From the NCBI GenBank assembly GCA_014730235.1, contig WJIO01000267.1:1-33465 (forward strand): DNA of 33,465 nucleotides. Direction: 5' to 3'. Position numbers and translations under genes: made by a program. The notes under the pieces are model-generated. The model did not search any database, was not told where the DNA came from, and saw nothing but the letters and a program-made list of their open reading frames with translations. This stretch comes from Candidatus Poribacteria bacterium (GTDB lineage: Bacteria > Poribacteria > DTPJ01 > WJIO01). This document shows positions 453 to 33,465 of this stretch, piece after piece; position 1 is the first letter of the stretch; every line of letters starts with the position of its first letter.

Positions 453-3400
453 ATGAAATCAAAAATTGTATTTGCTGTATTGTTTCTGACTGTATTTTGT
501 TTTAGCTCCTATGGGATTGAAGTAAGTGTATCTAAAATCGAGGCCCAACCCGGTTCAACAGCAGTGGTGGATATAAGCCTGGATACTGCTGCTGGGGTTG
601 CTGGCGCTGATATAATGCTGGAATATGATCCGGCTTCGCTGGAAGTCGTTGATGCCCAGGTGACTCCCCTGGTGTCAAGTTTATTGCCCACAATAAACTA
701 CAGCGATCCGGGTATAGTAAGTCTATCCATGGCCGGAACAGCCGCTTTGACAGAAGGCAGCGGGGCCATAATGGAGATAAGCTTTAACGTCAAACCTGAT
801 GCAACAGGGGAAATACCTCTGACACTTTCGGAAGTTGCCCTGTATGATGAATTAGCCGGGGATATTCCTGATGTCACTGCAGTTGATGGAAATATAACCT
901 TACCTGCGCCATCACAGGAAGAAATCAACAAAGCCATCGCCCGTCGTCCCTATGAGGATGTTATCAATCAGCAAAACTTAGATGCAATAGACGAAATCTT
1001 TGCCCCTGATTATTTGGAACACTTACCACCAAATCCTGATCTTCATGGTCCTGATGGCGTGAGGGCATATATCGAATCGCTTCTTGCCGATTTTCCCGAT
1101 ACCCATTTTGTTATCGAGGATCAGGTCGCCGAAGGGAATATGGTGGTTAGTCGCTGGACAATTACAGGTACACAAAAAGGTGATTTTATGGGTATCCCAG
1201 CTACTGGTATATCCACGGCATCAACAGGAATTAGTGTATTCCATATTGAAAATGGAATGATTTTGGAAGGCTGGATTCACTCCGACTTTCTGGGAGTTAT
1301 GCAGCAGCTTGGTGTTATTGAACCCGGACGGCCAGCACCGGAAAATTATACCTGGGGAGAACCATCAGAAGTAACTGGTGATCCGGGTGATATGGAAGTA
1401 AATAAAATCATTGCAGAAAGATATGTTAATGAGTGCTGGAATCAGGGTAATCTGGATGTGTTGGATGAAATTCTGCATTCTGAAATTCTGGTTCATAACC
1501 CGGTTATTCCCGTTGCAATAGACACTATTGAGGTTGTTAAAGAAAATACTGCGGGTTATCTCAATGCTTTCCCCGATATGAATGTAACTGTTCTGGCTAC
1601 AATAACCGAAGGTGATAAGCTTGTTCAGTTATGGTCAACCTCAGGAACTCACCAGGGAGAACTCATGGGTATTTCGGCTACCGGCACAAAGGCAAGCTGG
1701 TCAGGAACAACCATTTATCGCTTCGTTGATGGCAAGATAGCAGAAGTCTGGTGGGCTTATGATGTTCTTGGCCTGATGCAGCAGTTATCAGCCGCCGCGA
1801 CGGAAATGATGAATGAAGCCATCAGTGCTCGGATATGGGATGAGATATGGAATCAGGGTAATCTTGATCTGGCGGATGAATTGGTTGCAGAAGATTTTGT
1901 CCTTCATGATCCTGTCAGCGGTGATGTAGCTGGACTTGAAATCTTCAAGCAGTTCGTTGGCATGTACCATACTGCGTTCCCGGATTTCCAGTTTACCGTT
2001 GAAGATCGCATGGCTGTTGGTGATAAGGTAATGATAAGATTTTCCTTCCAGGGAACCCATGAAGGTGAACTCATGGGAATGCCAGCCAGTGGTAAACAGA
2101 TAAATCTGACGGGAATAGTTGTAGAACAATATAAAGATGGTAAAGCTGTAGAATCATGGTCCGAATGGGATGCTCTGGGTCTGATGCAGCACCTTGAGGT
2201 TATTCCACCTAATCGCGAAACCTATGGTTGGGCCCCACCATCTGGAATAGAGGGCGATCCCGGCGATCCAGAAGCAAATAAAGCTGTTGTTATACGGTAT
2301 ATCCAGGAATTTTGGAATGATAAGAACCTGGATGTATTGGATGAACTTGCTCATCCAGAGGTTTTCAGTCATACCCCTGTTGAGACTATAAATCCTATAG
2401 TTGGCATAGAAACAGCCAAAGAAGTTGCTTCTGGTTACATGGAAGCTTTTCCTGACCTTCACGTTGTGGTGGATGATCTCTTCGCCAAGGATGATTTGGT
2501 ATTAGAGCGCTGGACAGCTACAGCTACCCATCAAGGTGAGATATTGGGTATTTCACCAACGAATAAAAAAGTTATATACACTGGCTTTACCTTATATCGT
2601 CTTGTTGAAGGAAAGATGACCGACGTCTGGTGGGCCTGGGATAGTCTGGGATTGATAAATCAACTGACGACGGAAGAGGAAGATTATTCAAATGTCTTCT
2701 TTACCCAATTATCACCGGGTCTAAACATGATATCCCTTCCACTAAAACCAATCGAACCTTATACGGCTCGTTCCTTTGCCGAAGAAATAGAAGCGACAGT
2801 AGTTATCCGATATGATACGGAAGCCAAAAAATTCATGGGCTTTACTATGGATGCACCTGATGATGGTTTTCCCATCGAAGGTGGAATGGGCTACATTGTC
2901 AACTTGCCCTCCGGCAGCGTGGTAACATTTACCGGCGCAGCATGGACAAACGAACCACCAGTGGATACGGCTGCACCACCTGCTGTATCTGATGCGTGGG
3001 CTTATGTAGTCAGCGGACAAATTCAGGATGGTGAGATAATGAAGTTGGGTGCTGGTGGCTATACCGTCAATGTTCGCAACCTGAGAACCCATGTAGAATT
3101 ATCCCAGAAGGTAAAAGGTGACGGATACTTTGCCGCTGCATACGCTGATCTTAACCGTAACGCTGTTGTAGAAATCGGCGATAAAATAGAAGTCTCAGTC
3201 ACTGATCTAAACGGCGGAATCGTATCAGGCCCGTTTGTCCGGGAAATAACCCCGGATAATATAAGAGATGCTGTTGTGAATATCAACCTGCGTCTTGGTG
3301 AAATTATACCGGAAAGATCAACCTTGCTTCAGAACTATCCCAACCCCTTTAACCCTGAAACATGGATTCCCTATTATCTGAATGAAGGATCAGATGTAAT

Positions 3401-3605
3401 CGTCAGTATATACAATTCTATGGGGCAGTTGATCAGAACCCTGGATATTGGATATAAAGCCGCTGGAATTTATGTAGACAGGTCAAAAGCCGTTTACTGG
3501 AATGGCAAGAATTCGGCAGGAGAAAGGGTAGCCAGTGGACTTTATTTCTATTCCATAAAAGCTGGTGAATTTTCGGCTACCCGGAAGATGGTTATCAAGC
3601 AGTAA
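453..3605 (+). CDS. Secreted cohesin / four SnoaL-like domains / C-terminal sorting-domain protein
   Basis: A 1050-residue exported protein. Residues 1-21 look like a signal peptide. Residues 22-151 resemble a cohesin-type beta-sandwich (GADIMLEYDP, ending with a DGNITL strand). Four SnoaL-like (NTF2-fold) domains follow at about 155-291, 314-446, 451-582 and 607-738. They share the pattern NLD..DE, H.P, FPD, GTH.GE.MGI, GKI and LGLMQQL. Residues 748-835 form a further beta-rich module. Residues 955-1050 form a FlgD-like C-terminal sorting domain (NYPNPFNPETWIPY, final MVIKQ) of the kind linked to outer-membrane secretion and surface anchoring. GGGAG lies 9 nt before the ATG. It is the only plus-strand gene here. 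SnoaL domains occur in cyclases, isomerases and binding proteins; the substrate is unknown. Confidence 0.9.
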   Translation: MKSKIVFAVLFLTVFCFSSYGIEVSVSKIEAQPGSTAVVDISLDTAAGVAGADIMLEYDPASLEVVDAQVTPLVSSLLPTINYSDPGIVSLSMAGTAALTEGSGAIMEISFNVKPDATGEIPLTLSEVALYDELAGDIPDVTAVDGNITLPAPSQEEINKAIARRPYEDVINQQNLDAIDEIFAPDYLEHLPPNPDLHGPDGVRAYIESLLADFPDTHFVIEDQVAEGNMVVSRWTITGTQKGDFMGIPATGISTASTGISVFHIENGMILEGWIHSDFLGVMQQLGVIEPGRPAPENYTWGEPSEVTGDPGDMEVNKIIAERYVNECWNQGNLDVLDEILHSEILVHNPVIPVAIDTIEVVKENTAGYLNAFPDMNVTVLATITEGDKLVQLWSTSGTHQGELMGISATGTKASWSGTTIYRFVDGKIAEVWWAYDVLGLMQQLSAAATEMMNEAISARIWDEIWNQGNLDLADELVAEDFVLHDPVSGDVAGLEIFKQFVGMYHTAFPDFQFTVEDRMAVGDKVMIRFSFQGTHEGELMGMPASGKQINLTGIVVEQYKDGKAVESWSEWDALGLMQHLEVIPPNRETYGWAPPSGIEGDPGDPEANKAVVIRYIQEFWNDKNLDVLDELAHPEVFSHTPVETINPIVGIETAKEVASGYMEAFPDLHVVVDDLFAKDDLVLERWTATATHQGEILGISPTNKKVIYTGFTLYRLVEGKMTDVWWAWDSLGLINQLTTEEEDYSNVFFTQLSPGLNMISLPLKPIEPYTARSFAEEIEATVVIRYDTEAKKFMGFTMDAPDDGFPIEGGMGYIVNLPSGSVVTFTGAAWTNEPPVDTAAPPAVSDAWAYVVSGQIQDGEIMKLGAGGYTVNVRNLRTHVELSQKVKGDGYFAAAYADLNRNAVVEIGDKIEVSVTDLNGGIVSGPFVREITPDNIRDAVVNINLRLGEIIPERSTLLQNYPNPFNPETWIPYYLNEGSDVIVSIYNSMGQLIRTLDIGYKAAGIYVDRSKAVYWNGKNSAGERVASGLYFYSIKAGEFSATRKMVIKQ

Positions 3606-3669: not shown

Positions 3670-4869
3670 TTACTTACCCAGCTTCTTCCGGAAAGTATCC
3701 GTAAGAACCGGTACGATATCAAACAAGTCTGCGACAATACCAAAAGTTGCCACGTCGAATATAGGAGCATCGGGGTCTTTGTTTATTGCTACTATTATGT
3801 CAGATGTCTGCATGCCGATAAGATGCTGAATAGCCCCTGATATACCGCAGGCGATATACAGCTTGGGATGCACTGTTTTGCCCGTCTGACCTACCTGATG
3901 GTAGGAGGGTATCCAGCCAGCATCGACAGTAGCCCTGGAAGCCCCTACTGCCCCTCCAATAACTTCCGCCAGTTCCCTTACCACGCTGAAATTCTCAGCT
4001 TTACCAAGCCCACGACCACCGGAGACTATAATTTCAGCTTCCTGGAGATTTACGTTGATATCGGCAGCCTGTATAACTTCCAGAATCTTTGTGCAGATGT
4101 CTTCAGCTTCAAGGGCGATGTCCTTTACCTCGATGACTTTACCCTCGCGGGAAAGATCAGGTTCCAGGGGTATCATGACGTTTGGACGCACTGTGGCCAT
4201 CTGGGGGCGATGATTGGGGATAATAATGGTGGCCATAAGGTTGCCGCCAAAAGCCGGTCTTGTCTGTACCAGAAGTCTTCTGTCAACGTCTATTTCCAAC
4301 TCTGTGCAGTCGGCTGTAAGACCTGTCTGTATACGGGCAGCGACCCTTGGAGCAAGAGAACGACCTAAGCTGGATGCACCAAACAGGACAATTTCGGGAA
4401 AATACCTTTCAATAAGGGATACGAGGGCTTTCGTATATACGTCTGTCTGGTACTGCTCAAGAAGAGGATGGTTGACGTAATAAACCTGATCTGCACCGTA
4501 GTGTATAAGCTTTTCAGGCATATCTGATACATCCGAACCAAGTAAGACAGCAGAAAGGGTAACGTCCAGCTTATCCGCAAGGATTCGGCCTACGCCCAGT
4601 AATTCCATTGCAACGTTCATTAAAATTCCGTCGCGCTGTTCTGCAAAAACCCATACACCTTTGTATGCACTGAGATCAACATCTTCTCTTGCTTCTCTTT
4701 CGATTACTATGGCGTTTTGCTTTTTACATGCAGTAACACAAGCGCCGCAGAGGGTGCAGGCATCCAGATCAATGACGGCTTTTTTCTCAACAAGCTTTAC
4801 CGCGCCAAAGGGACAGGCTTTGACACAAAGGGAACAACCAATACATTTTTCTTCAATTACATAAATCAC
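3670..4869 (-). CDS. etfA: Electron transfer flavoprotein alpha subunit with N-terminal ferredoxin domain
   Basis: The FAD-carrying alpha subunit of electron transfer flavoprotein, which accepts electrons from acyl-CoA dehydrogenases. The N-terminal 55 residues form a two-[4Fe-4S] ferredoxin module with two CxxCxxCxxxC motifs (CIGCSLCVKAC and CTLCGACVTAC). The ETF alpha N domain follows, then the C-terminal FAD domain (VSGGRGLGKAENF, GASRATVDAGW, HQVGQTGKTVHP, NKDPDAPIF). The GTG at 4869 is preferred because AGGTGG sits 7 nt upstream. An in-frame TTG at 4890 would add seven residues (MRIGGWI). The gene follows etfB within 25 nt and is surely cotranscribed. Fd-domain EtfA proteins occur in anaerobes and in some bifurcating or membrane-linked systems; which applies here cannot be decided. 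Confidence 0.93.
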   Translation of the reverse strand: MIYVIEEKCIGCSLCVKACPFGAVKLVEKKAVIDLDACTLCGACVTACKKQNAIVIEREAREDVDLSAYKGVWVFAEQRDGILMNVAMELLGVGRILADKLDVTLSAVLLGSDVSDMPEKLIHYGADQVYYVNHPLLEQYQTDVYTKALVSLIERYFPEIVLFGASSLGRSLAPRVAARIQTGLTADCTELEIDVDRRLLVQTRPAFGGNLMATIIIPNHRPQMATVRPNVMIPLEPDLSREGKVIEVKDIALEAEDICTKILEVIQAADINVNLQEAEIIVSGGRGLGKAENFSVVRELAEVIGGAVGASRATVDAGWIPSYHQVGQTGKTVHPKLYIACGISGAIQHLIGMQTSDIIVAINKDPDAPIFDVATFGIVADLFDIVPVLTDTFRKKLGK

Positions 4870-4891
4870 AATCCATCCACCTATTCGCAAA

Positions 4892-5674
4892 TTACACGAT
4901 ATTCATATCTCTTAATTCGGCAAAAAGGGCCTGGGCTATTTCCTCCGGTTCCCCTGCCAACATTGTACCTTTTCCCCTTGGTTCGGGGTTAAAGGTTTTT
5001 ATAACCTCTGTAGGAGATCCGGTTTTACCTATACGCTCAGGATCGGCGTCTATATCCTCTGGCTTCCAGACAGGTATTTCCACTTTCTTGGCTTTTAACA
5101 CACCTCTCAGGGAAGCGTGTCTCGGTTCGTTAATTTCTTTAACAACTGTCAAAGCCGCAGGAAGTTTAGTCTGGAGTACTTCACAGCTATCCTCAAGGAC
5201 ACATTCGGCTGTGACATGACCATCTTCTACATTGATCTTGCGGACATACGTCAACTGGGGAAGATTCAGCATTTCTGCGACACCGGGGCCAACCTGAGCG
5301 GTATCACCGTCTATAGCCTGTTTACCAAACAACAGCATGTCATAATCACCGAGTTTGTTTATGGCAGTCGCCAGAGTGTATGCAGTGGCGAGGGTGTCGG
5401 CAATGGCAAAACGCCTGTCGCTCAACAGTATTCCCTGATCTGCGCCCATGGCGACGGCCTGGCGCAGTGCTTCCTCTGCCTGGGGTGGTCCCATACATAT
5501 AACAATAACCTCTCCGCCATGCTCTTCCTTTAATTGCAGGGCGGATTCGATGGCGTTTTCATCAAATGGATTGATAATAGACGGTACACCGTCCCGGATC
5601 ATGGAATTTGTTTCTTTGTCGAAACGCACCTGACTGCTGTCGGTTACCTGCTTTATACAAACAATTATTCGCAT
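4892..5674 (-). CDS. etfB: Electron transfer flavoprotein beta subunit
   Basis: A 260-residue ETF beta subunit, the usual family length, partner of the downstream EtfA. Recognisable features are the N-terminal MRIIVCIKQVTD, the nucleotide-binding DGDTAQVGPG region, and the beta-subunit signature around residues 177-196 (VKEINEPRHASLRG, LKAKK). AAGGAA lies about 8 nt before the ATG. The gene is separated from the acyl-CoA dehydrogenase gene by a 120-bp MITE that also carries a promoter-like pair pointing to etfB. The neighbourhood suggests that the dehydrogenase and this ETF form one electron-transfer pathway. Confidence 0.95.
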   Translation of the reverse strand: MRIIVCIKQVTDSSQVRFDKETNSMIRDGVPSIINPFDENAIESALQLKEEHGGEVIVICMGPPQAEEALRQAVAMGADQGILLSDRRFAIADTLATAYTLATAINKLGDYDMLLFGKQAIDGDTAQVGPGVAEMLNLPQLTYVRKINVEDGHVTAECVLEDSCEVLQTKLPAALTVVKEINEPRHASLRGVLKAKKVEIPVWKPEDIDADPERIGKTGSPTEVIKTFNPEPRGKGTMLAGEPEEIAQALFAELRDMNIV

Positions 5675-5703
5675 TTGGCGTTTCCTTGATATTAAATTTA
5701 TTT

Positions 5704-5823
5704 GGTTCTTCCGGGTTTAGTGTGGTTATAATTGAAAATTCTCTCAGCTTGTCATTCCTGCTTTTGCAGGAATGACAGCATAAAGAAGTCTCTTATCTTT
5801 ACCACACTAAACACCGAAGAACC
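5704..5823. mobile_element. MITE copy B (120 bp) between the acyl-CoA dehydrogenase gene and etfB
   Basis: The ends at 5704-5726 and 5801-5823 are inverted repeats (GGTTCTTCC...TGTGGT), with two mismatches. The centre holds the palindrome 5751-5776 (arms GTCATTCCTGC and GCAGGAATGAC, loop TTTT). The flanks 5696-5703 (ATTTATTT) and 5824-5831 (ATTTATCT) match at 7 of 8 positions, a slightly decayed target duplication that includes the stop codon of the dehydrogenase gene. The interior is closely similar to copy C. Confidence 0.85.
5725..5755 (-). promoter_or_regulatory. Promoter-like pair carried by MITE copy B, facing etfB
   Basis: On the minus strand ATGACA (5750-5755, from the edge of the central palindrome) and TATAAC (5725-5730, overlapping the MITE end) are 19 bp apart. 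Each matches consensus at 5/6. Transcription would start about 45 nt before the etfB ATG. The long spacer makes this a weak prediction. Confidence 0.3.
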
Positions 5824-5825
5824 AT

Positions 5826-6962
5826 TTATCTCAATATATGTCCAGCGATAACATTGCGCTGTATCTCAGAAGTCCCTTCAACTATCTCAAAGAGCTTGGA
5901 TTCGCGGAAAAACCTTTCGACACTGTAATCGCACATTAAACCATAGCCACCGTGAATCTGGACTGCCTGATTTGTGGCTCTATGGCAAACTTCGGAGGAG
6001 AACAGCTTTGACATGGCAGCTGGAAGGCCAAAAGACTTGCCCTGATCATGCAGCCATGCAGCTTTACGCATAAGTAGATCAGCCGTTTCGATTTCTGTGG
6101 CCATGTCCGCCAGCTTATGCTGTATGGCTTGGAAATTTGCTATACGCTGACCGAACTGGACTCTTTCTTTGGAATATTGAAGGGCTTTTTCGTATGCAGC
6201 TTTGGAAAGACCTATAGCTCCGACTGACATTCCTATTCTTCCAACATCCAGAGTTTCCATGGCTACTCTGAACCCCCTGTTTAATTTACCCAGAAGGTTT
6301 TCTTCCGGTATTCTGCAATCCTGGAAAATCAATTCCTTATTGGCCAGGGCTTTAAAGCAGAGCTTATCATCCTGAGGGCCAAAGGTAAAACCCGGAGTAT
6401 CTTTTTCTATGATAAAAGCGCTCATACCGCGAGCACCGCGTCCCGGTTCGGTCTTTAGAGTTACAACGTAAGTTTGGGCTTCGCCTGCGTTGCTGATAAA
6501 TATCTTGGTGCCGTTTACAATATATTCATCACCATCTTTAACAGCAGTGGCAATACCTGAGCCGGCATCAGAACCGGCGTTTGGTTCTGTAAGACCAAAG
6601 GCTCCGACCACTTCGCCCTTACAAAGGGGGGTAAGGTATTTTTTCTTTTGCTCTTCTGTACCAAATTTATAAATAGGATACATGCAGAGTATATTTGCGC
6701 CATATACAGCCCCGGTTGTACTGCAAGCTTTGGCAAGTTCTACACCAACCAAAGCCCATGTGAGTAGATCCGATCCAAGTCCTCCATATTCTTCAGGAAA
6801 GGGAATTCCGCTTAGATCATATCTGGCCAGCATTTCGATATTGTCCCAGGGGTATTTTCCACAGGCATCAATCTCATCGGCTTTTGGTGCAAGCTCTTCT
6901 TCACATATTTCTCTAACTGCTTCTAATATTGCTTCTTGTTCTTCTGTAAGATCAAAATTCAT
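5826..6962 (-). CDS. Acyl-CoA dehydrogenase
   Basis: A 378-residue flavoprotein of the short/medium-chain acyl-CoA dehydrogenase family. It oxidises an acyl-CoA to the trans-2-enoyl-CoA and hands electrons to ETF. The alpha-helical N domain (MNFDLTEEQEAILEAVREI) is followed by the FAD-binding signature FGLTEPNAGSDAGSG, the beta domain, and a C-terminal helical domain ending GGYGLMCDYSVERFFRESK and EGTSEIQRN. The Glu before GTSEIQ (about residue 362) is at the catalytic-base position of short-chain and butyryl-CoA enzymes. Chain length cannot be read from the sequence. The gene follows rnc by 29 nt and precedes etfBA, so it is the likely electron donor to that ETF. A MITE has inserted right at its stop codon. 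Confidence 0.95.
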   Translation of the reverse strand: MNFDLTEEQEAILEAVREICEEELAPKADEIDACGKYPWDNIEMLARYDLSGIPFPEEYGGLGSDLLTWALVGVELAKACSTTGAVYGANILCMYPIYKFGTEEQKKKYLTPLCKGEVVGAFGLTEPNAGSDAGSGIATAVKDGDEYIVNGTKIFISNAGEAQTYVVTLKTEPGRGARGMSAFIIEKDTPGFTFGPQDDKLCFKALANKELIFQDCRIPEENLLGKLNRGFRVAMETLDVGRIGMSVGAIGLSKAAYEKALQYSKERVQFGQRIANFQAIQHKLADMATEIETADLLMRKAAWLHDQGKSFGLPAAMSKLFSSEVCHRATNQAVQIHGGYGLMCDYSVERFFRESKLFEIVEGTSEIQRNVIAGHILR

Positions 6963-23360: not shown

Positions 23361-24131
23361 TTAAATAATCTCCATTAAAAAATCCCTATCACGTTTCAGA
23401 GCTTTCAACTTATCCTCACCATGAACGAATTCCACTTCTATATAACCATCAAAGCCCTTTGATTTTAATATTTTCAGTATACGCTTATAATCAACAGCAC
23501 CTTCAGAAATACCACATGGTGTTACTTTTCCATCTGGTTCAACCTTTGCGTTCTGGGCATGGACATTAACCACATACTTACCGATCATCTCCGCTGCTTT
23601 GTAGGGATCATCTGCATCTTCAGAAAATCTGGGTTGATAGTAAGTTTTTAGATATGGGCTATTTATTTTTTCCATCAATGCAACTATATTTTCAGCTTTG
23701 TCAGTCAGATTGTTTCCATGCATCTCTATGGCCAGAATAATTTCACGCTTTTCCGCTTCTTCTGCCATCTCACCAAATACTGCAAATATCTTGTTTTTGA
23801 CATCCTCTGACATTTGTGATGAAGGGCCTCCTCCAGACCATACCCGCATTATTTCAGTACCCAGATTTTCTGTTATGTTAAATGCAGTATTCCATTGATC
23901 TTTGTAATTTTCCATAAGGGGATTAACATAAGAACCAAAGCTGAATATATCAAGTTCCCTTTCCTTTGCCATCTGACTTACTGACTTTATGTATTCAATA
24001 TCATATTCCATAGGTGTATGGGGTGGTTTACCCCAGATTTCTACACCATCAAAACCGCTTTTGGCGGCTATATCCAATACATCTTTCAAAGGTAATTCCT
24101 GAAACGCAATTGTGCATAATCCTATTTTCAT
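23361..24131 (-). CDS. Sugar phosphate isomerase/epimerase, hydroxypyruvate isomerase-like
   Basis: A 256-residue TIM-barrel protein of the AP-endonuclease-2 family. It starts MKIGLCTIAFQELPLKDVLD. Likely metal and catalytic positions are the Glu in AIEMHGN, the His in VVNVHAQN and the Glu in YIEVEFVHGE. The substrate is unknown. It starts 3 nt after the last gene of the five-gene membrane cluster and is surely cotranscribed with it, so it may serve that cluster or simply be carried along. Confidence 0.88.
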   Translation of the reverse strand: MKIGLCTIAFQELPLKDVLDIAAKSGFDGVEIWGKPPHTPMEYDIEYIKSVSQMAKERELDIFSFGSYVNPLMENYKDQWNTAFNITENLGTEIMRVWSGGGPSSQMSEDVKNKIFAVFGEMAEEAEKREIILAIEMHGNNLTDKAENIVALMEKINSPYLKTYYQPRFSEDADDPYKAAEMIGKYVVNVHAQNAKVEPDGKVTPCGISEGAVDYKRILKILKSKGFDGYIEVEFVHGEDKLKALKRDRDFLMEII

Positions 24132-24134
24132 AAC

Positions 24135-24794
24135 TTATCTCCCGTTTGATACTATGGAATTAATAAATGGTATATTTTGCAATAAAAAATCAACCCTACC
24201 TATTAAAAGAGAAATACGGGCCATAACGGTATAGCCAAAGGATGCCCCAAAGCCTATCATCAGGAATATTATACCTGCTTCAGAAAGACCACCGGATAAT
24301 CCCTTACGTTCCCTTGAGAAGAAGAAATATATAAGCGTGCAAATTACCCCCAGCATTATCATTACAGCATTTGTGATTGCCCATAAACTACTCTTATCAC
24401 CAAATGGCTGTATAGTTCCCTGAATCTGCCGGTAGATATCGGCTTGCATTATCACTGGTATTTTTACCCCGGCGCTGTAACCCATGAGAAAAGCAAATGG
24501 CCATCTTACCATCCAGTTATATCTGGGAACAAATCGGCTGAAAAGCATAAGACCCATGAGGGATGGTATAAGCACGCTGAATTCCCTGTATTTTCCCTCT
24601 GTTAAAGCAGATTTTAACGGATAATATATATATGGCAAAAAGTTGGTATGATAGGCAATGGCCAATAGATAACCGGCGGAAATACCCACAAAAAGATGTT
24701 CTGCAAATTTAAAGAGTGGGTTATCCTTATACAAAAAGCTGTATACGCATATAGTCAGACCAATTGCTACCCATATACCTATTGCATTAAACAT
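24135..24794 (-). CDS. Uncharacterised six-helix membrane protein (cluster gene 5)
   Basis: I do not recognise this 219-residue protein. Hydrophobic segments at about 5-22, 32-50, 73-88, 99-115, 133-155 and 168-190 predict six membrane helices. Charged loops (PRYNW, SRERKGL) lie between them. No known transporter signature is visible. Its ATG shares one base with the previous stop (TAATG), so it is translationally coupled to the 278-residue protein. It is the last membrane gene of the cluster. Confidence 0.85.
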   Translation of the reverse strand: MFNAIGIWVAIGLTICVYSFLYKDNPLFKFAEHLFVGISAGYLLAIAYHTNFLPYIYYPLKSALTEGKYREFSVLIPSLMGLMLFSRFVPRYNWMVRWPFAFLMGYSAGVKIPVIMQADIYRQIQGTIQPFGDKSSLWAITNAVMIMLGVICTLIYFFFSRERKGLSGGLSEAGIIFLMIGFGASFGYTVMARISLLIGRVDFLLQNIPFINSIVSNGR

Positions 24795-25630
24795 TATACC
24801 TTAACCTTTTTACGTGCCTTATGTCTTGAAATTAAATAAACTACATTACCCAGCAAAACAAGAAATATAATTGCTAAATGCGCCATTGACTGGGCGTTCA
24901 TACCCAGAGTAGCTTTCCCGGTAAGTTTCACCAGCTTTTCATATTCTGCCGCTCCTTTTAATCCCCCGATTAGACCCACAAGTTGTCCTGCCTTTAGGTA
25001 TGGATAAAGACCTGAAACCATTACACCAGTACAACCTGAAGCGATCTTCTGACCGTATCTTGAGCCTGCATAGGCGATCCATGCTTCAGGCGTATTACCT
25101 GAACCCAAATCAATCACTAAAGCTATATCTCTGTAGTTTTTGATATTCTTCATCATGGAAATTTCGGTTACAGGACGATTCATGTAGTCAGTGGGAAACG
25201 GATCTGCAATGTCTTCGCCTATACCCAGCATTGTAGCTTCGAAGTTCGGCTTATAACCAAGATAAACGTAGTCCTGAAGCTCCTGGTAACTACAGCTTTC
25301 AGCCATTTCTTTTAAAGCTGTATCACCTATAGTTGCGGCGCTAGAATACAATGTCATCCCGATAATTTTTAGCTTTCTGGAACAACAGTGTTTTAAAACA
25401 GCCAGGGACATGGGATATAATTCAGGCATTGTAGATGGGCTATAATTAAAACCCACCAGTACCACCGAACCCTCTGGCAAAGCCTCAATAAAGTCATATA
25501 CGCTTCTAACTGGTTGTGACACATACACAGGCATGTGAAAAGGCAGGATAAAAGGCACAAGCACAGCTACTGCTATTACCAGATATATATAACGCCTGTC
25601 TATATTGAGCAGTCTTTCAGTCAAAGACAT
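24794..25630 (-). CDS. Uncharacterised membrane-anchored alpha/beta protein (cluster gene 4)
   Basis: A 278-residue protein with one N-terminal helix (about 13-32) and one C-terminal helix (about 249-269) followed by a basic tail (RHKARKKVKV). The roughly 210 residues between look like a soluble alpha/beta domain with alternating strands (GSVVLVGFNYSP, LKIIGMTLY, DIALVIDLGSGNTPEAW), probably outside the cytoplasm. The strand-loop patterns suggest a Rossmann-like fold, but no catalytic motif is recognised. It is tightly coupled to the next gene. The two-anchor layout resembles the DUF6754 protein two genes upstream. Confidence 0.85.
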   Translation of the reverse strand: MSLTERLLNIDRRYIYLVIAVAVLVPFILPFHMPVYVSQPVRSVYDFIEALPEGSVVLVGFNYSPSTMPELYPMSLAVLKHCCSRKLKIIGMTLYSSAATIGDTALKEMAESCSYQELQDYVYLGYKPNFEATMLGIGEDIADPFPTDYMNRPVTEISMMKNIKNYRDIALVIDLGSGNTPEAWIAYAGSRYGQKIASGCTGVMVSGLYPYLKAGQLVGLIGGLKGAAEYEKLVKLTGKATLGMNAQSMAHLAIIFLVLLGNVVYLISRHKARKKVKV

Positions 25631-25665
25631 TTAATCGTTTCCCAAGAATAAACACATATCACTGA

Positions 25666-26328
25666 TCACTGACTACTACTGGCAAAATGCGATCTTTCGA
25701 TACCAAGAATAATCTTAAGGGATGTGCTTATAGCCCCTAAAGCTGCACCTATCATTATACCGCGTCGTGCTGCCATATTTGGGCCTGACATAACCCATTC
25801 AGCCACCTGTTCGGGCAAAAATGGAACTTTATCCACCCATGATTGAGGAGCTACAGCCTGCCACAGGAAATCACCTATAGGAACTCTTCCGAACATCACA
25901 ATCACAGCGGCAATCAACAAAAGTGTAGCATCCAGTGTCCTCGCTCTGAAAGCCCGATAAGCCGCTGATGCCATGAAAAAAGCCAGCAGGGAGAACATGG
26001 TAGCATCCAGGGGGATATTTATATTCTGGAATATCCATACAAATAGCTTTCCCCTTGTTCCTCCAATAATACCGGCAGAGGCTGTAACTATAAGTCCGGC
26101 AAAGACCACTACACTGTAAAACCAGCCTGGAGAACGTCGGGTTATTCTTCGAAAATGAAGTCTTACCAGAGTTCCAATGCCTATTATCAGAGCAAACACA
26201 CCGATAATCCTGGCCCAATTTAATATACCTCTATATACACTTATAAAACCGGGGTGGGGTATAAAAAACTGGATAAGCATAAATATACCGCATACAAAGC
26301 TTATTATAAGAGGTATTTGACGTTTCAT
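25666..26328 (-). CDS. Uncharacterised six-helix membrane protein (cluster gene 3)
   Basis: I do not recognise this 220-residue protein. Predicted membrane helices lie at about 4-22, 31-53, 66-90, 105-125, 130-150 and 188-206. An Arg-rich loop (RLHFRRITRRSPG) between helices 2 and 3 suggests a cytoplasmic face. The stretch between helices 5 and 6 (about 150-187) is amphipathic. It lies 24 nt after the FN3-membrane protein gene and 35 nt before the alpha/beta protein gene. Confidence 0.85.
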   Translation of the reverse strand: MKRQIPLIISFVCGIFMLIQFFIPHPGFISVYRGILNWARIIGVFALIIGIGTLVRLHFRRITRRSPGWFYSVVVFAGLIVTASAGIIGGTRGKLFVWIFQNINIPLDATMFSLLAFFMASAAYRAFRARTLDATLLLIAAVIVMFGRVPIGDFLWQAVAPQSWVDKVPFLPEQVAEWVMSGPNMAARRGIMIGAALGAISTSLKIILGIERSHFASSSQ

Positions 26329-26352
26329 AGATTTTACAATTTGCCTTTATTC

Positions 26353-27477
26353 TTACCTGAATAGATTAGTAAACCATTGGTAGCCCAAAAGCTGTAATAT
26401 AACCCCAATAATAATGCACGCAATGACAATCAGTTTGCCTATATCCTGACCCTTCAAACTTCCCAGCAGTAGGGGATCTTTAGAAAGATATGCGCTGGCG
26501 GCATAAAGCTCTTCGCCCATTAATGTGTAATCACAGGAAGCGATAAAGAAAGGTAATTGAGTAATAGAATCTGTACCTGCCACTTGGATCGTGCCGCTTA
26601 CGTTACCCACTTCAGCCAGTATAAGGGATTCGGCCATAAATGCGCCCATGTAAAATATAGCCGCAGGTTTCTCGCGAATAATCATACCATCAACAGCGGC
26701 GGCATAGGCAAACTGTTCTTCAGTTATGAAAAATACGTTTTCCTGTCTGTAAGTATCCGGTCTGCCCGCGTCCATATGGGCGTTGCGTATTATTTCACGT
26801 TCAATATTCATCACCACAGGATCGCTGCATGGAACTAAAAGCGGAGTTTCATATTCAGCCGCCATGCGGGAAATTCTGGAAAGGATGTTCATAGAGGCAA
26901 TAGTAGCCATGCTTCTTATGCCACCTATGCCTGAAACGTATAATATAGATTTGCCCATTTCCGTTGCTCTGCCGATGGCTTCATCAATGGCCTCAAGGCC
27001 GGGTATGCGTCGGATTGTGAGTTTTTTGCCCGATTTAGCGTGGTATATGAAAAATATCAGTATACCCGATATTATTAAAACACCCCCAGCAGTAGGCAAA
27101 AGAGATTTATCAAACCATTGGGCCTTCGGTACAACAGGGCCTATCATGGGTGAGTTTGCCACAACACCATCGTTATATATGGTCTGTATAATGTAATAAT
27201 AACCTTTACCTCGGGTGACTTTATTATCAATATATCTATTAACACCGGGTTCTGCATTTCCAATCGGTTTCATATCACCTATGGTTACCTCAGATCGGAA
27301 AATGCGATATGATTTTATCCTCGGGAATTCTGTATCAACTTCCCATTCAAGTATAATACTCCCTCCGTTGTCATTTGGCGTATCAATTCCCCTGAGATTT
27401 GCTGTTTCGGCTGTGGATATAATTGGCAGGATAGGAATGAAGAATAATATTATTATTGCTAAAATTTTCCGGTTCAT
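26353..27477 (-). CDS. FN3-containing membrane protein, DUF6754-like (cluster gene 2)
   Basis: A 374-residue protein. Residues 1-23 look like a signal peptide. Residues 25-115 form a fibronectin type III-like domain (SIILEWEVDTEFPRIKSYRIFR, GYYYIIQTIYNDG). A helix at about 128-147 and a final helix at about 348-366 bracket an alpha/beta domain (GLEAIDEAIGRATEMGKSILY, FFITEEQFAYAAAVDGMI, GTDSITQLPFFIASCDYTLMGEELYA in parts). That middle domain recalls the family annotated as DUF6754, from memory only. No function is known. It starts 10 nt after the barrel-sandwich/KOW protein gene. Confidence 0.8.
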   Translation of the reverse strand: MNRKILAIIILFFIPILPIISTAETANLRGIDTPNDNGGSIILEWEVDTEFPRIKSYRIFRSEVTIGDMKPIGNAEPGVNRYIDNKVTRGKGYYYIIQTIYNDGVVANSPMIGPVVPKAQWFDKSLLPTAGGVLIISGILIFFIYHAKSGKKLTIRRIPGLEAIDEAIGRATEMGKSILYVSGIGGIRSMATIASMNILSRISRMAAEYETPLLVPCSDPVVMNIEREIIRNAHMDAGRPDTYRQENVFFITEEQFAYAAAVDGMIIREKPAAIFYMGAFMAESLILAEVGNVSGTIQVAGTDSITQLPFFIASCDYTLMGEELYAASAYLSKDPLLLGSLKGQDIGKLIVIACIIIGVILQLLGYQWFTNLFR

Positions 27478-27487
27478 CGAAATCTCT

Positions 27488-28609
27488 CTATAAACTTGTG
27501 ATCTCTACATTAGCCCTGGGTAAGACAACTATTTCTGATATATCTTTTATCTTTACCTTTAGAACCCTTACTCTTGCCTCAGTTTCAAGTTCCTGAAGTT
27601 CAGATATTAATTCAGTAACTTCACCTAATTTACCGAAATATGGTTCTCTAATTATTCGGACTTCCGAACCTACAGACATCCGGGTCTGGCTATCATCTAA
27701 ATCAACTTGAGCGTCATTGACATCAGGAATAATAACCTCTGGTCTTATAACACCAGCCCGGATCTGTGTTGCACCACTTATAGATGCTTTCATACCCGCG
27801 TGGTTTTTAAACAGGTTAAAAGTTCTTTCAGCCATTGCTATTTTACCAAATCCCTCAGTTATCATGAGGGTAAAGGGTAGATCTTCAGAACCGGTTATGG
27901 CAACGCCTATTTCATACCCCAGTAATTCCTTCAGATCGTTATCGTCAATGCCGCCTGTGACAATACCTTTTATACCTATGTCTTCAGCTTTTTTAATAGC
28001 TTTAACACTTACCAGAGAACCACCTACAACAATTTTACCAGATAAATCATCCGATAGCTTATCAGGAGTTAAAATATCCCCTGGATTATCACAGGCTACG
28101 ACAAGTGTTCCGATGGCTTCGCCGCCTATGCCAAATATTCCCTGGATAAAAGTTCCGTAAGTTTCAATTTTAACACCTTCGTTTTCCAGTATGTCAATAA
28201 CTGTGCCTGATACATAGGCGTTTATCTCAACGGGTATTTCCGGCTTTCGGATTATAACCTGACCTGTAATGTCCGAAATGCTTTCAATTTTTCCATCCAC
28301 AGGGGAGCGCCACTGGGTTTTGAATAAACCAAATATGCCTTTTGTAGAGGCCAGAATTTCATCTTTATCTACAGGTTCACCGGCTTTTTTTAGCATTATA
28401 TACTTAACTTCATCAGGTTGAACACCCAATATATTGGCTACATTTGCGGATTGTACCTGACCGGGAAGTTGGGTTCTGGCCACGAAAGTCTCCGCATCCA
28501 CATGTTGGCCTATCTGGACAATAGTATCACCGGGTAGCGGCAAACGACGGAGTCTTACTAATTTTACCCCGCTGGAAACTTTTAAGCCGGGAGTATAAGC
28601 ATTAGTCAT
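27488..28609 (-). CDS. Uncharacterised barrel-sandwich/KOW domain protein (cluster gene 1)
   Basis: A 373-residue protein without signal peptide or membrane helix. Residues 20-145 look like a barrel-sandwich (lipoyl/RnfC-like) region: LPLPGDTIVQIGQHVDAETFVA, then WRSPVDGKIESI and VSGTVIDI. Residues 150-290 look alpha/beta (GKIVVGGSLVSVKAIKKAEDIGIKGIVTGGID). Residues 312-370 match a KOW-like motif (GSEVRIIREPYFGKLGEVTEL, LPRANVEI). No Cys cluster or lipoylation motif is present, so it is not RnfC. As the first gene of the cluster it could be a cytoplasmic partner of the four membrane proteins. No convincing ribosome-binding site precedes the ATG. Confidence 0.8.
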   Translation of the reverse strand: MTNAYTPGLKVSSGVKLVRLRRLPLPGDTIVQIGQHVDAETFVARTQLPGQVQSANVANILGVQPDEVKYIMLKKAGEPVDKDEILASTKGIFGLFKTQWRSPVDGKIESISDITGQVIIRKPEIPVEINAYVSGTVIDILENEGVKIETYGTFIQGIFGIGGEAIGTLVVACDNPGDILTPDKLSDDLSGKIVVGGSLVSVKAIKKAEDIGIKGIVTGGIDDNDLKELLGYEIGVAITGSEDLPFTLMITEGFGKIAMAERTFNLFKNHAGMKASISGATQIRAGVIRPEVIIPDVNDAQVDLDDSQTRMSVGSEVRIIREPYFGKLGEVTELISELQELETEARVRVLKVKIKDISEIVVLPRANVEITSL

Positions 28610-32625: not shown

Positions 32626-33113
32626 TTATTTAAACCACCATTCTATAAACTTTTCAGTTACTTCAAGAACAATCTTTGTTTTTTTCAAGAAATTACTTGC
32701 TATGCTTGGATTGTATTCTTCCGATGGTAATTTGATTTTATTATTGTCTATATCTTGATAACGGCTGAGTGATACATGGGGTTCGATTTGCAAACCAATA
32801 TCAGCAATTATTGTTAGTTTTTCTTCCCATTCAGATAATTTACGTTCTTCGATCTCTCTTCTTAAAACATCAGAAATAAAATGGGTTTTATAGAATTCTC
32901 CCCAAGCTGAAAGAATAGATTTTATACTTTTTTCTACGATTGCTGGCAATGATAAACAGCATTTTCAAACAATTCTGCTTCTATTAGTTTTTCAGCAGAA
33001 GATAAATCTCTTCTAGCTCCTGTAAGCCATGCTAATGACCACTGTTGATTAGTAGGTTTAGAAAGTTTTGTCGGAACTCTGTATTTTACAGGATAATGAC
33101 CATGCCCCAACAC
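32626..33113 (-). pseudogene. HEPN-domain protein, frameshifted
   Basis: Two reading frames together encode one HEPN-like protein. The first frame (33113 down to about 32940, start GTG or TTG near 33110) reads QQWSLAWLTGARRDLSSAEKLIEAELFENAVYHCQQ, shown here as parts of the typical N-terminal HEPN helices, and then meets a stop. The second frame (32937 down to 32626) continues with VEKSIKSILSAWGEFY and ends FIEWWFK. The join needs one extra base near 32938-32942, at the usual CQQ(A)VEK position of the family. HEPN proteins pair with MNT nucleotidyltransferases as toxin-antitoxin or modifying systems, and the MNT gene lies just upstream. The lesion may be real decay or a sequencing error. Confidence 0.75.
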
Positions 33114-33465
33114 CTTTTCTTATTATATTCTTTAATAAAACATATTTACGGGTTTCATCTATATGTTTCTTCAAATAATCGTTTTTATCGTATAAAATCT
33201 GAGCATCAAAGGCTATATCCAGATATAGTGGATTATGATTTCTAAAATTATTTTCACATTCAGTTTTAGATATCAAAATAGTATCCAGGGGATACGATTC
33301 ATCAGGAAAACATTCATTTATTCTTAATATATCTTCAATACGCTCAATTCTATTCTTGTCAATATTCTCTACAACTATGAGTAAATCAGTATCAGAATCC
33401 GCGGTATCTTCATTTCTCGCCACAGAACCAAAAACAGCAACTGATACTACGTTCAGATCATCTAT
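33058..33465 (-). CDS. MNT-type nucleotidyltransferase (5' end outside the window)
   Basis: The C-terminal 135 codons of a minimal nucleotidyltransferase. The active-site signature GSVARNEDTADSDTDLLI (GSxAR then DxD) is intact. The frame stays open to the window edge, so the true start is beyond 33465. The final residues (GAWSLSCKIQSSDKTF) overlap the start of the HEPN gene by about 56 nt. MNT/HEPN pairs often form type VII toxin-antitoxin systems in which MNT modifies and silences HEPN. Function here is inferred from the pairing. Confidence 0.85.
   Translation of the reverse strand: MDDLNVVSVAVFGSVARNEDTADSDTDLLIVVENIDKNRIERIEDILRINECFPDESYPLDTILISKTECENNFRNHNPLYLDIAFDAQILYDKNDYLKKHIDETRKYVLLKNIIRKGVGAWSLSCKIQSSDKTF

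Follow-up and report, generated by a model that had tools for sequence, protein, structure and literature searches.

A DUF6754-containing membrane system conserved in Poribacteria and other bacterial phyla, with a candidate MutL-BSH engine

What is encoded by the compact run of five genes at positions 24135-28609 of the 33,465-nt stretch of Candidatus Poribacteria DNA analyzed here (contig WJIO01000267.1, hereafter the window), and do its products act together? A first-pass annotation, made from the sequence alone, suggested that they form one undescribed membrane complex. The comparative analysis supports this core claim, as gene order is strictly conserved and none of the components could be matched to a complex already described. 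The best reading of the data is that the five genes would represent a membrane unit and an adaptor (BSH) of a larger, ATPase-associated inner-membrane system. We regard it as very probable that there is one conserved system, which also includes the ATPase-like protein MutL. The genes concerned, with the names used throughout, are as follows.

27488..28609, minus strand: BSH, 373 residues, soluble, with barrel-sandwich hybrid domains, a central swivelling alpha/beta domain and a C-terminal KOW domain
26353..27477, minus strand: DUF6754 protein, 374 residues, with a signal/N-terminal helix, an extracytoplasmic FN3 domain and a cytoplasmic alpha/beta domain of high conservation, which lies between two transmembrane helices, the second of them C-terminal
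25666..26328, minus strand: TM6b, 220 residues, a six-helix membrane protein without known family
24794..25630, minus strand: AB, 278 residues, with two anchors and a ~215-residue extracytoplasmic alpha/beta domain
24135..24794, minus strand: TM6a, 219 residues, polytopic, with the motif SFLYKDNP-YKFAEH, five clear helices and a possible sixth
23361..24131, minus strand: TIM-barrel gene (AP_endonuc_2/xylose isomerase-like), which adjoins TM6a and is judged to lie outside the system

The list of open reading frames (ORFs) and a reading of the sequence bear out the layout originally described, i.e. five co-directional genes with gaps of at most 35 nt and a TAATG coupling. Along the run the intergenic gaps are 10, 24 and 35 nt, followed by a 1-nt TAATG overlap (-1), by which AB and TM6a are translationally coupled. 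Terminator-like sites in the region occur at chance level (3 observed versus 4.2 expected from shuffled sequence), and neither tRNAs nor Rfam RNAs were found in the window. The TIM-barrel ORF, which starts 3 nt past TM6a, had been thought to join the cluster. This part of the proposal did not survive: profile matches were found in 2 of 20 enlarged poribacterial loci, and the cluster of TIM-like neighbors is small (8 loci). The adjacency is apparently incidental, not a conserved feature of the locus.

How widely is this arrangement kept? The 374-residue protein is a clear member of PF20539 (DUF6754), the sole curated Pfam family among the five proteins (E=7e-117, 389.6 bits versus a cut-off of 27). 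PF20539 is present in 82 of 85 Poribacteria genomes. Of 253 genomes sampled from other phyla 65 contain it, whereas all 14 well-known control genomes lack it. At least 570 loci were revealed when GTDB representatives were scanned, and the best 79 include Poribacteria, WOR-3/Stahlbacteria, TA06, Muiribacteriota, Mcinerneyibacteriota, Neomarinimicrobiota, Zixibacteria, Edwardsbacteria, Eisenbacteria, Latescibacterota, CSSED10-310, Phycisphaerae, Nitrospira, Gemmatimonadetes, Fermentibacteria, Cloacimonadota and Methylomirabilis. Among copies with enough flanking sequence, the order DUF6754-TM6b-AB-TM6a is found on one strand in all 24 poribacterial copies and in 111 of the 121 from elsewhere (outside the present genome, genes were called as mechanical ORFs), with conserved-order loci in Nitrospirota, Zixibacteria, Marinimicrobia, WOR-3, Gemmatimonadota, Methylomirabilota, Cloacimonadota and others. 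Median pairwise identity between phyla is ~51% for DUF6754, 51% for BSH, 43% for TM6a and TM6b, and 37% for AB. The five-gene cluster is thus real and far beyond chance, its order being preserved across phyla. The neighborhood of the 374-residue protein, which the first-pass annotation had singled out for comparison, proved to be syntenic both within Poribacteria and across other phyla; scattered homologs or clear matches to a described complex, the outcomes named there as contrary to a single system, were not encountered.

Clustering of the flanking genes of all loci, followed by iterated profiles, indicated that the five-gene view is incomplete: the system has no fewer than three further members, Y, X and MutL, which are encoded on another contig in this genome. 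MutL is a protein of ~600 residues from an ASKHA-type ATPase family (PF13941, E=1e-129, above the cut-off), in which the motifs DxGSTTTK, DIGGATTD and GSGG are conserved in 33 sequences. X (~115 residues) was found as 39 ORFs and Y (~150 residues), which exhibits weak bacterial-PH/EbsA-like similarity, as 18 ORFs. The complete locus has the order Y-X-MutL-BSH-DUF6754-TM6b-AB-TM6a and is contiguous in Poribacteria (including loci L044 and L045) and in other phyla; MutL adjoins BSH in ~40 loci, together with X and Y. In the genome studied here, Y-X-MutL is located on the separate contig C106 (L184:5979-12220), which ends inside MutL, and this MutL copy is 78% identical to that of L045. Three distant places of a further poribacterial genome, G046, harbor MutL, BSH and the membrane unit, respectively. 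What the window shows is therefore BSH and the four-gene unit, as portions of a system that is partly dispersed. On C106, Y-X-MutL is preceded by gap-pgk-tpiA-secG-like genes, and homologs of gap, pgk and tpiA recur upstream of other loci.

The association of MutL and BSH with the membrane unit extends to their joint presence in genomes. Among the 253 outside genomes, 61 possess both DUF6754 and MutL (counted at E<1e-30), 4 DUF6754 only, 8 MutL only and 180 neither (Fisher p=2e-44); for DUF6754 and BSH the respective numbers are 61, 4, 0 and 188 (p=2e-54), i.e. all 61 BSH-containing genomes outside the phylum carry DUF6754. These p-values overstate independence, as related genomes are counted, though the sample spans ~200 families. 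Among the eight MutL-only genomes, five seem to be ordinary carriers of GlmL, with a shorter MutL and stronger PF13941 scores; at one of these loci ornithine-aminomutase-like genes are the neighbors. In five genomes (with two copies in one of them) MutL and BSH are fused into single ORFs of ~950-1030 residues, and a sixth contains a weaker case of 862 residues; these fusions are good evidence that the two proteins work together. The fusion proteins (L178-L183, L190) occur in genomes where MutL and BSH are present as separate genes too; they have no KOW part, and no membrane unit was seen in the sequence retrieved on either side of them. Could the five genes nevertheless be mere neighbors without a common function? 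The location of BSH and MutL elsewhere in the genome in some Poribacteria would agree with this, but it is refuted by the four-gene order, which is kept in 135 of the 145 copies, by the co-occurrence statistics (p from 1e-44 to 1e-54) and by the gene fusions, and we attach practically no weight to it. An origin in plasmids or phages and a role in anti-phage defence were also rejected, as PADLOC gave no match for any of the eight proteins and DUF6754 had no matches on plasmids or phages.

What are the individual proteins? In BSH, the barrel-sandwich and KOW domains proposed earlier are supported by Pfam matches of its relatives (RnfC_N, best 5e-7, in 17 of 25 members; Biotin_lipoyl, 1e-5; KOW, best 5e-5; NQRA_N, 0.0015) and by the AlphaFold (AF2) model (pLDDT 88). 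Foldseek superimposed this model on the KOW5 domain of SPT5 at 1.2 A over 60 residues and gave weaker barrel-sandwich and swivelling-domain matches; only KOW and barrel-sandwich pieces were aligned, and whole-chain TM was low. BSH is 44-55% identical across phyla. The RnfC_N and NQRA_N matches, together with the appearance of NqrA among the Foldseek matches listed, might suggest a divergent redox-driven ion pump akin to Rnf or Na+-NQR, with BSH as its RnfC/NqrA-like peripheral subunit. The similarity detected to RnfC and NqrA lies in the barrel-sandwich hybrid domain. Pfam scans of the BSH family members revealed no domain of the flavin, NADH (51K), ferredoxin or SLBB kind, and BSH has additional swivelling and KOW domains and no redox membrane partners; TM6a and TM6b have no conserved Cys, hence no Cys ligands of the Rnf/Na+-NQR kind, and no Pfam match to RnfA/D/E. 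The missing cofactor sites largely refute this explanation, and we consider it very improbable.

The DUF6754 protein contains the FN3 and DUF6754 domains assigned to it at the outset, the former being supported by its AlphaFold (AF2) model (pLDDT 92.7), in which FN3 is followed by a helix, then by a domain of alternating alpha/beta structure and finally by a helix at the C-terminus. From hydropathy and the positive-inside rule it is predicted that FN3 is outside and the conserved alpha/beta domain inside, and likewise that the ~215-residue domain of AB, whose two anchors agree with the first assignment, is outside. Mean identity between DUF6754 relatives is 23% in the FN3 ectodomain versus 62% in the cytoplasmic domain. 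Very long outer regions, of up to ~950 residues before the cytoplasmic domain and with several FN3-like repeats, occur in L057, L073, L093, L094 and L162, and other DUF6754 proteins are almost devoid of an outer region. The matches listed by Foldseek for the whole DUF6754 model are FN3-driven, and none names the fold of the cytoplasmic domain. Two six-helix proteins had been predicted; by hydropathy this holds for TM6b, while in TM6a five helices are clear and a sixth is possible. Pfam scans of 38-53 relatives each of AB, TM6a and TM6b gave only scattered, inconsistent matches. PDB profile searches with the five proteins and a single-sequence search with MutL returned nothing credible, nor did NCBIfam or PADLOC for the five. 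As hhalign gave a probability of 2% for AB versus DUF6754 and 1.5% for TM6a versus TM6b, sequence homology within these two pairs was rejected. In one locus (L079:2263-9208) four AB genes surround a single DUF6754-TM6b-TM6a set, which suggests that AB may be multiplied on its own.

Among the closest known systems is the MutL/GlmL family (PF13941) of ATPase-like accessory proteins, which are encoded in operons for B12-dependent glutamate mutase and for ornithine aminomutase and are thought to serve there as an ATP-driven reactivase or cofactor-loading chaperone. Does the system MutL perform such a task? It is a full-length PF13941 member with the same nucleotide-binding motifs, and other members of the family adjoin ornithine-aminomutase-like genes (L189). 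One could envisage a MutL that reactivates, or loads with cofactor, a membrane-bound enzyme formed by DUF6754 and AB, both of which have invariant polar residues in their soluble domains (in AB, E70, P73, D120, Q216, E231, H251 and N262). In contrast to GlmL, however, the system protein has ~600 rather than ~460 residues and possesses a conserved C-terminal extension, an extra domain absent from the GlmL adjoining ornithine aminomutase, and its linkage is to membrane proteins, not to mutase genes, with some genomes carrying it as a fusion with BSH. We found no linkage to a B12-dependent aminomutase: its neighbors are X, Y and BSH, while the true GlmL-like copies adjoin OraS/OraE-like genes, and flanking-gene clustering revealed no recurrent B12 enzyme in the neighborhood. 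None of the components, the membrane subunits included, has a conserved Cys/His set of metal ligands. Maturation or reactivation of this kind is in our judgement improbable, though far from as remote as the redox pump.

How, then, do the numbers of MutL, BSH and membrane units compare? The 65 outside genomes contain ~126 PF20539 matches, with up to seven per genome, while each BSH-containing genome has one full-length stand-alone BSH and usually one long MutL. In tandem arrays (L055, L070, L084) a single BSH precedes two or three of the four-gene units. According to a tree of 152 DUF6754 domains, copies from the same array for the most part fall into separate clades common to other phyla (L055, L138, L061), and therefore the units are mostly ancient, differentiated paralogs, not recent copies; the main poribacterial copies form one clade (SH-like approximate likelihood ratio test support, SH-aLRT, of 92 by a quick method). 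In organization alone, a putative engine serving several specialized membrane units resembles the group-II energy-coupling factor (ECF) transporters; unlike these, the system has no S-component, no component has a Pfam match to an ABC ATPase or EcfT, and an ASKHA protein takes the place of the ATPase. The combination of an ASKHA-fold cytoplasmic protein with bitopic membrane proteins carrying outer domains is reminiscent of PilM-PilN-PilO of type IV pili and GspL of type II secretion, but no component matches the PilM/N/O or GspL/M families in Pfam.

The explanation that best accommodates these observations is a coupling model, to which we assign a probability of roughly 0.45. In this model MutL would bind and hydrolyze ATP, and BSH would dock it on the conserved cytoplasmic domain of DUF6754. 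TM6a and TM6b would form the membrane core, and the variable FN3 ectodomain of DUF6754, together with the outer domain of AB, would choose the external target of each unit. An ATP-driven conformational change passing through DUF6754 into the core would then move or assemble an envelope substrate, so that a shared cytoplasmic MutL-BSH engine would serve several specialized membrane heads. Transport or assembly is the final output we favor, as a tentative choice with the odds against it. Just as tentatively, we suggest that the system may represent a new class of ATP-energized envelope machine, in which an engine of MutL and a barrel-sandwich/KOW adaptor drives several diverged four-protein units with no known ABC, AAA+, rotary or proton-motive energizer.

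Sensing or scaffolding is, with enzyme reactivation, the main rival to the coupling model. The ectodomains might sense the state of the envelope or bind an external partner, and MutL might be an ASKHA switch or a polymer-forming scaffold (cf. FtsA, MreB, PilM), the multiple units being different receptors that feed a single cytoplasmic switch. In line with this, the ectodomains vary while the inner domain is conserved, several diverged units share one MutL-BSH, and MutL has weak FtsA/MreB-like similarity. On the other hand, no kinase, cyclase, response-regulator or DNA-binding partner is strongly recurrent beside the locus according to flanking-gene clustering, and two polytopic subunits at 43% median identity exceed the needs of a receptor. 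We find this unlikely, if less so than reactivation.

Several observations weigh against the coupling model and the integrity of the system behind it. ASKHA proteins can act as scaffolds or chaperones instead of motors. No BSH was detected in four DUF6754-containing genomes and no MutL in four, some of these genomes being fragmentary; certain Poribacteria have MutL, BSH and the membrane unit far apart; and the PDB searches found no solved relative of any component. Finally, two genomes from one genus without Omp85 retain a divergent, partly scattered set. As to the diderm envelope, the genome sample is mostly diderm, with Omp85 in 321 of 338 genomes, and Omp85 is absent from 2 of 65 genomes with DUF6754 versus 15 of 188 without it. 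The two DUF6754-containing genomes lacking Omp85 make a strictly outer-membrane role unlikely, and they also weaken the idea of a diderm-only role, which was considered in a sample almost entirely Omp85-positive. One genome without detectable Omp85 contains a strongly diverged X-DUF6754-TM6b and a lone BSH (L205:6822-9005 and L194:8209-9354).

Elsewhere in the window we found three other features.

453-3605, plus strand: a 1050-residue secreted-type protein that unusually combines a cohesin domain with four SnoaL-like cyclase domains in tandem and, at the C-terminus, a FlgD-Ig/Por secretion-tail-like region
3670-6962, minus strand: electron transfer flavoprotein (ETF) alpha, to which a ferredoxin-like [4Fe-4S] domain is fused N-terminally; ETF beta and an acyl-CoA dehydrogenase-like gene are adjacent, as is known for electron-bifurcating ETFs
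32626-33423, minus strand: a HEPN-domain ORF (PF05168, 9e-6) that follows a nucleotidyltransferase-like ORF, the two being similar to an MNT/HEPN toxin-antitoxin pair

What does the locus mean for the organisms that carry it? In the open-access library searched (subscription literature and preprints lying outside it), we found no mention of DUF6754, PF20539 or PF13941 and no description of the system; PF20539 itself is a family without described function, here set within an eight-gene system. A set of about eight proteins is kept together across more than 12 phyla and is near-universal in Poribacteria, yet has neither a described function nor a solved relative. It is present in Nitrospira, Methylomirabilis, Gemmatimonadota and Marinimicrobia, and is retained even in genomes of 0.9-1.4 Mb. 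The absence of its hallmark gene from the 14 control genomes may explain why the system has gone unnoticed. If the model of a MutL-BSH engine is true, it would reveal a new way of coupling ATP to membrane work and would provide a function for a large family whose sole annotation is that of a glutamate-mutase accessory.

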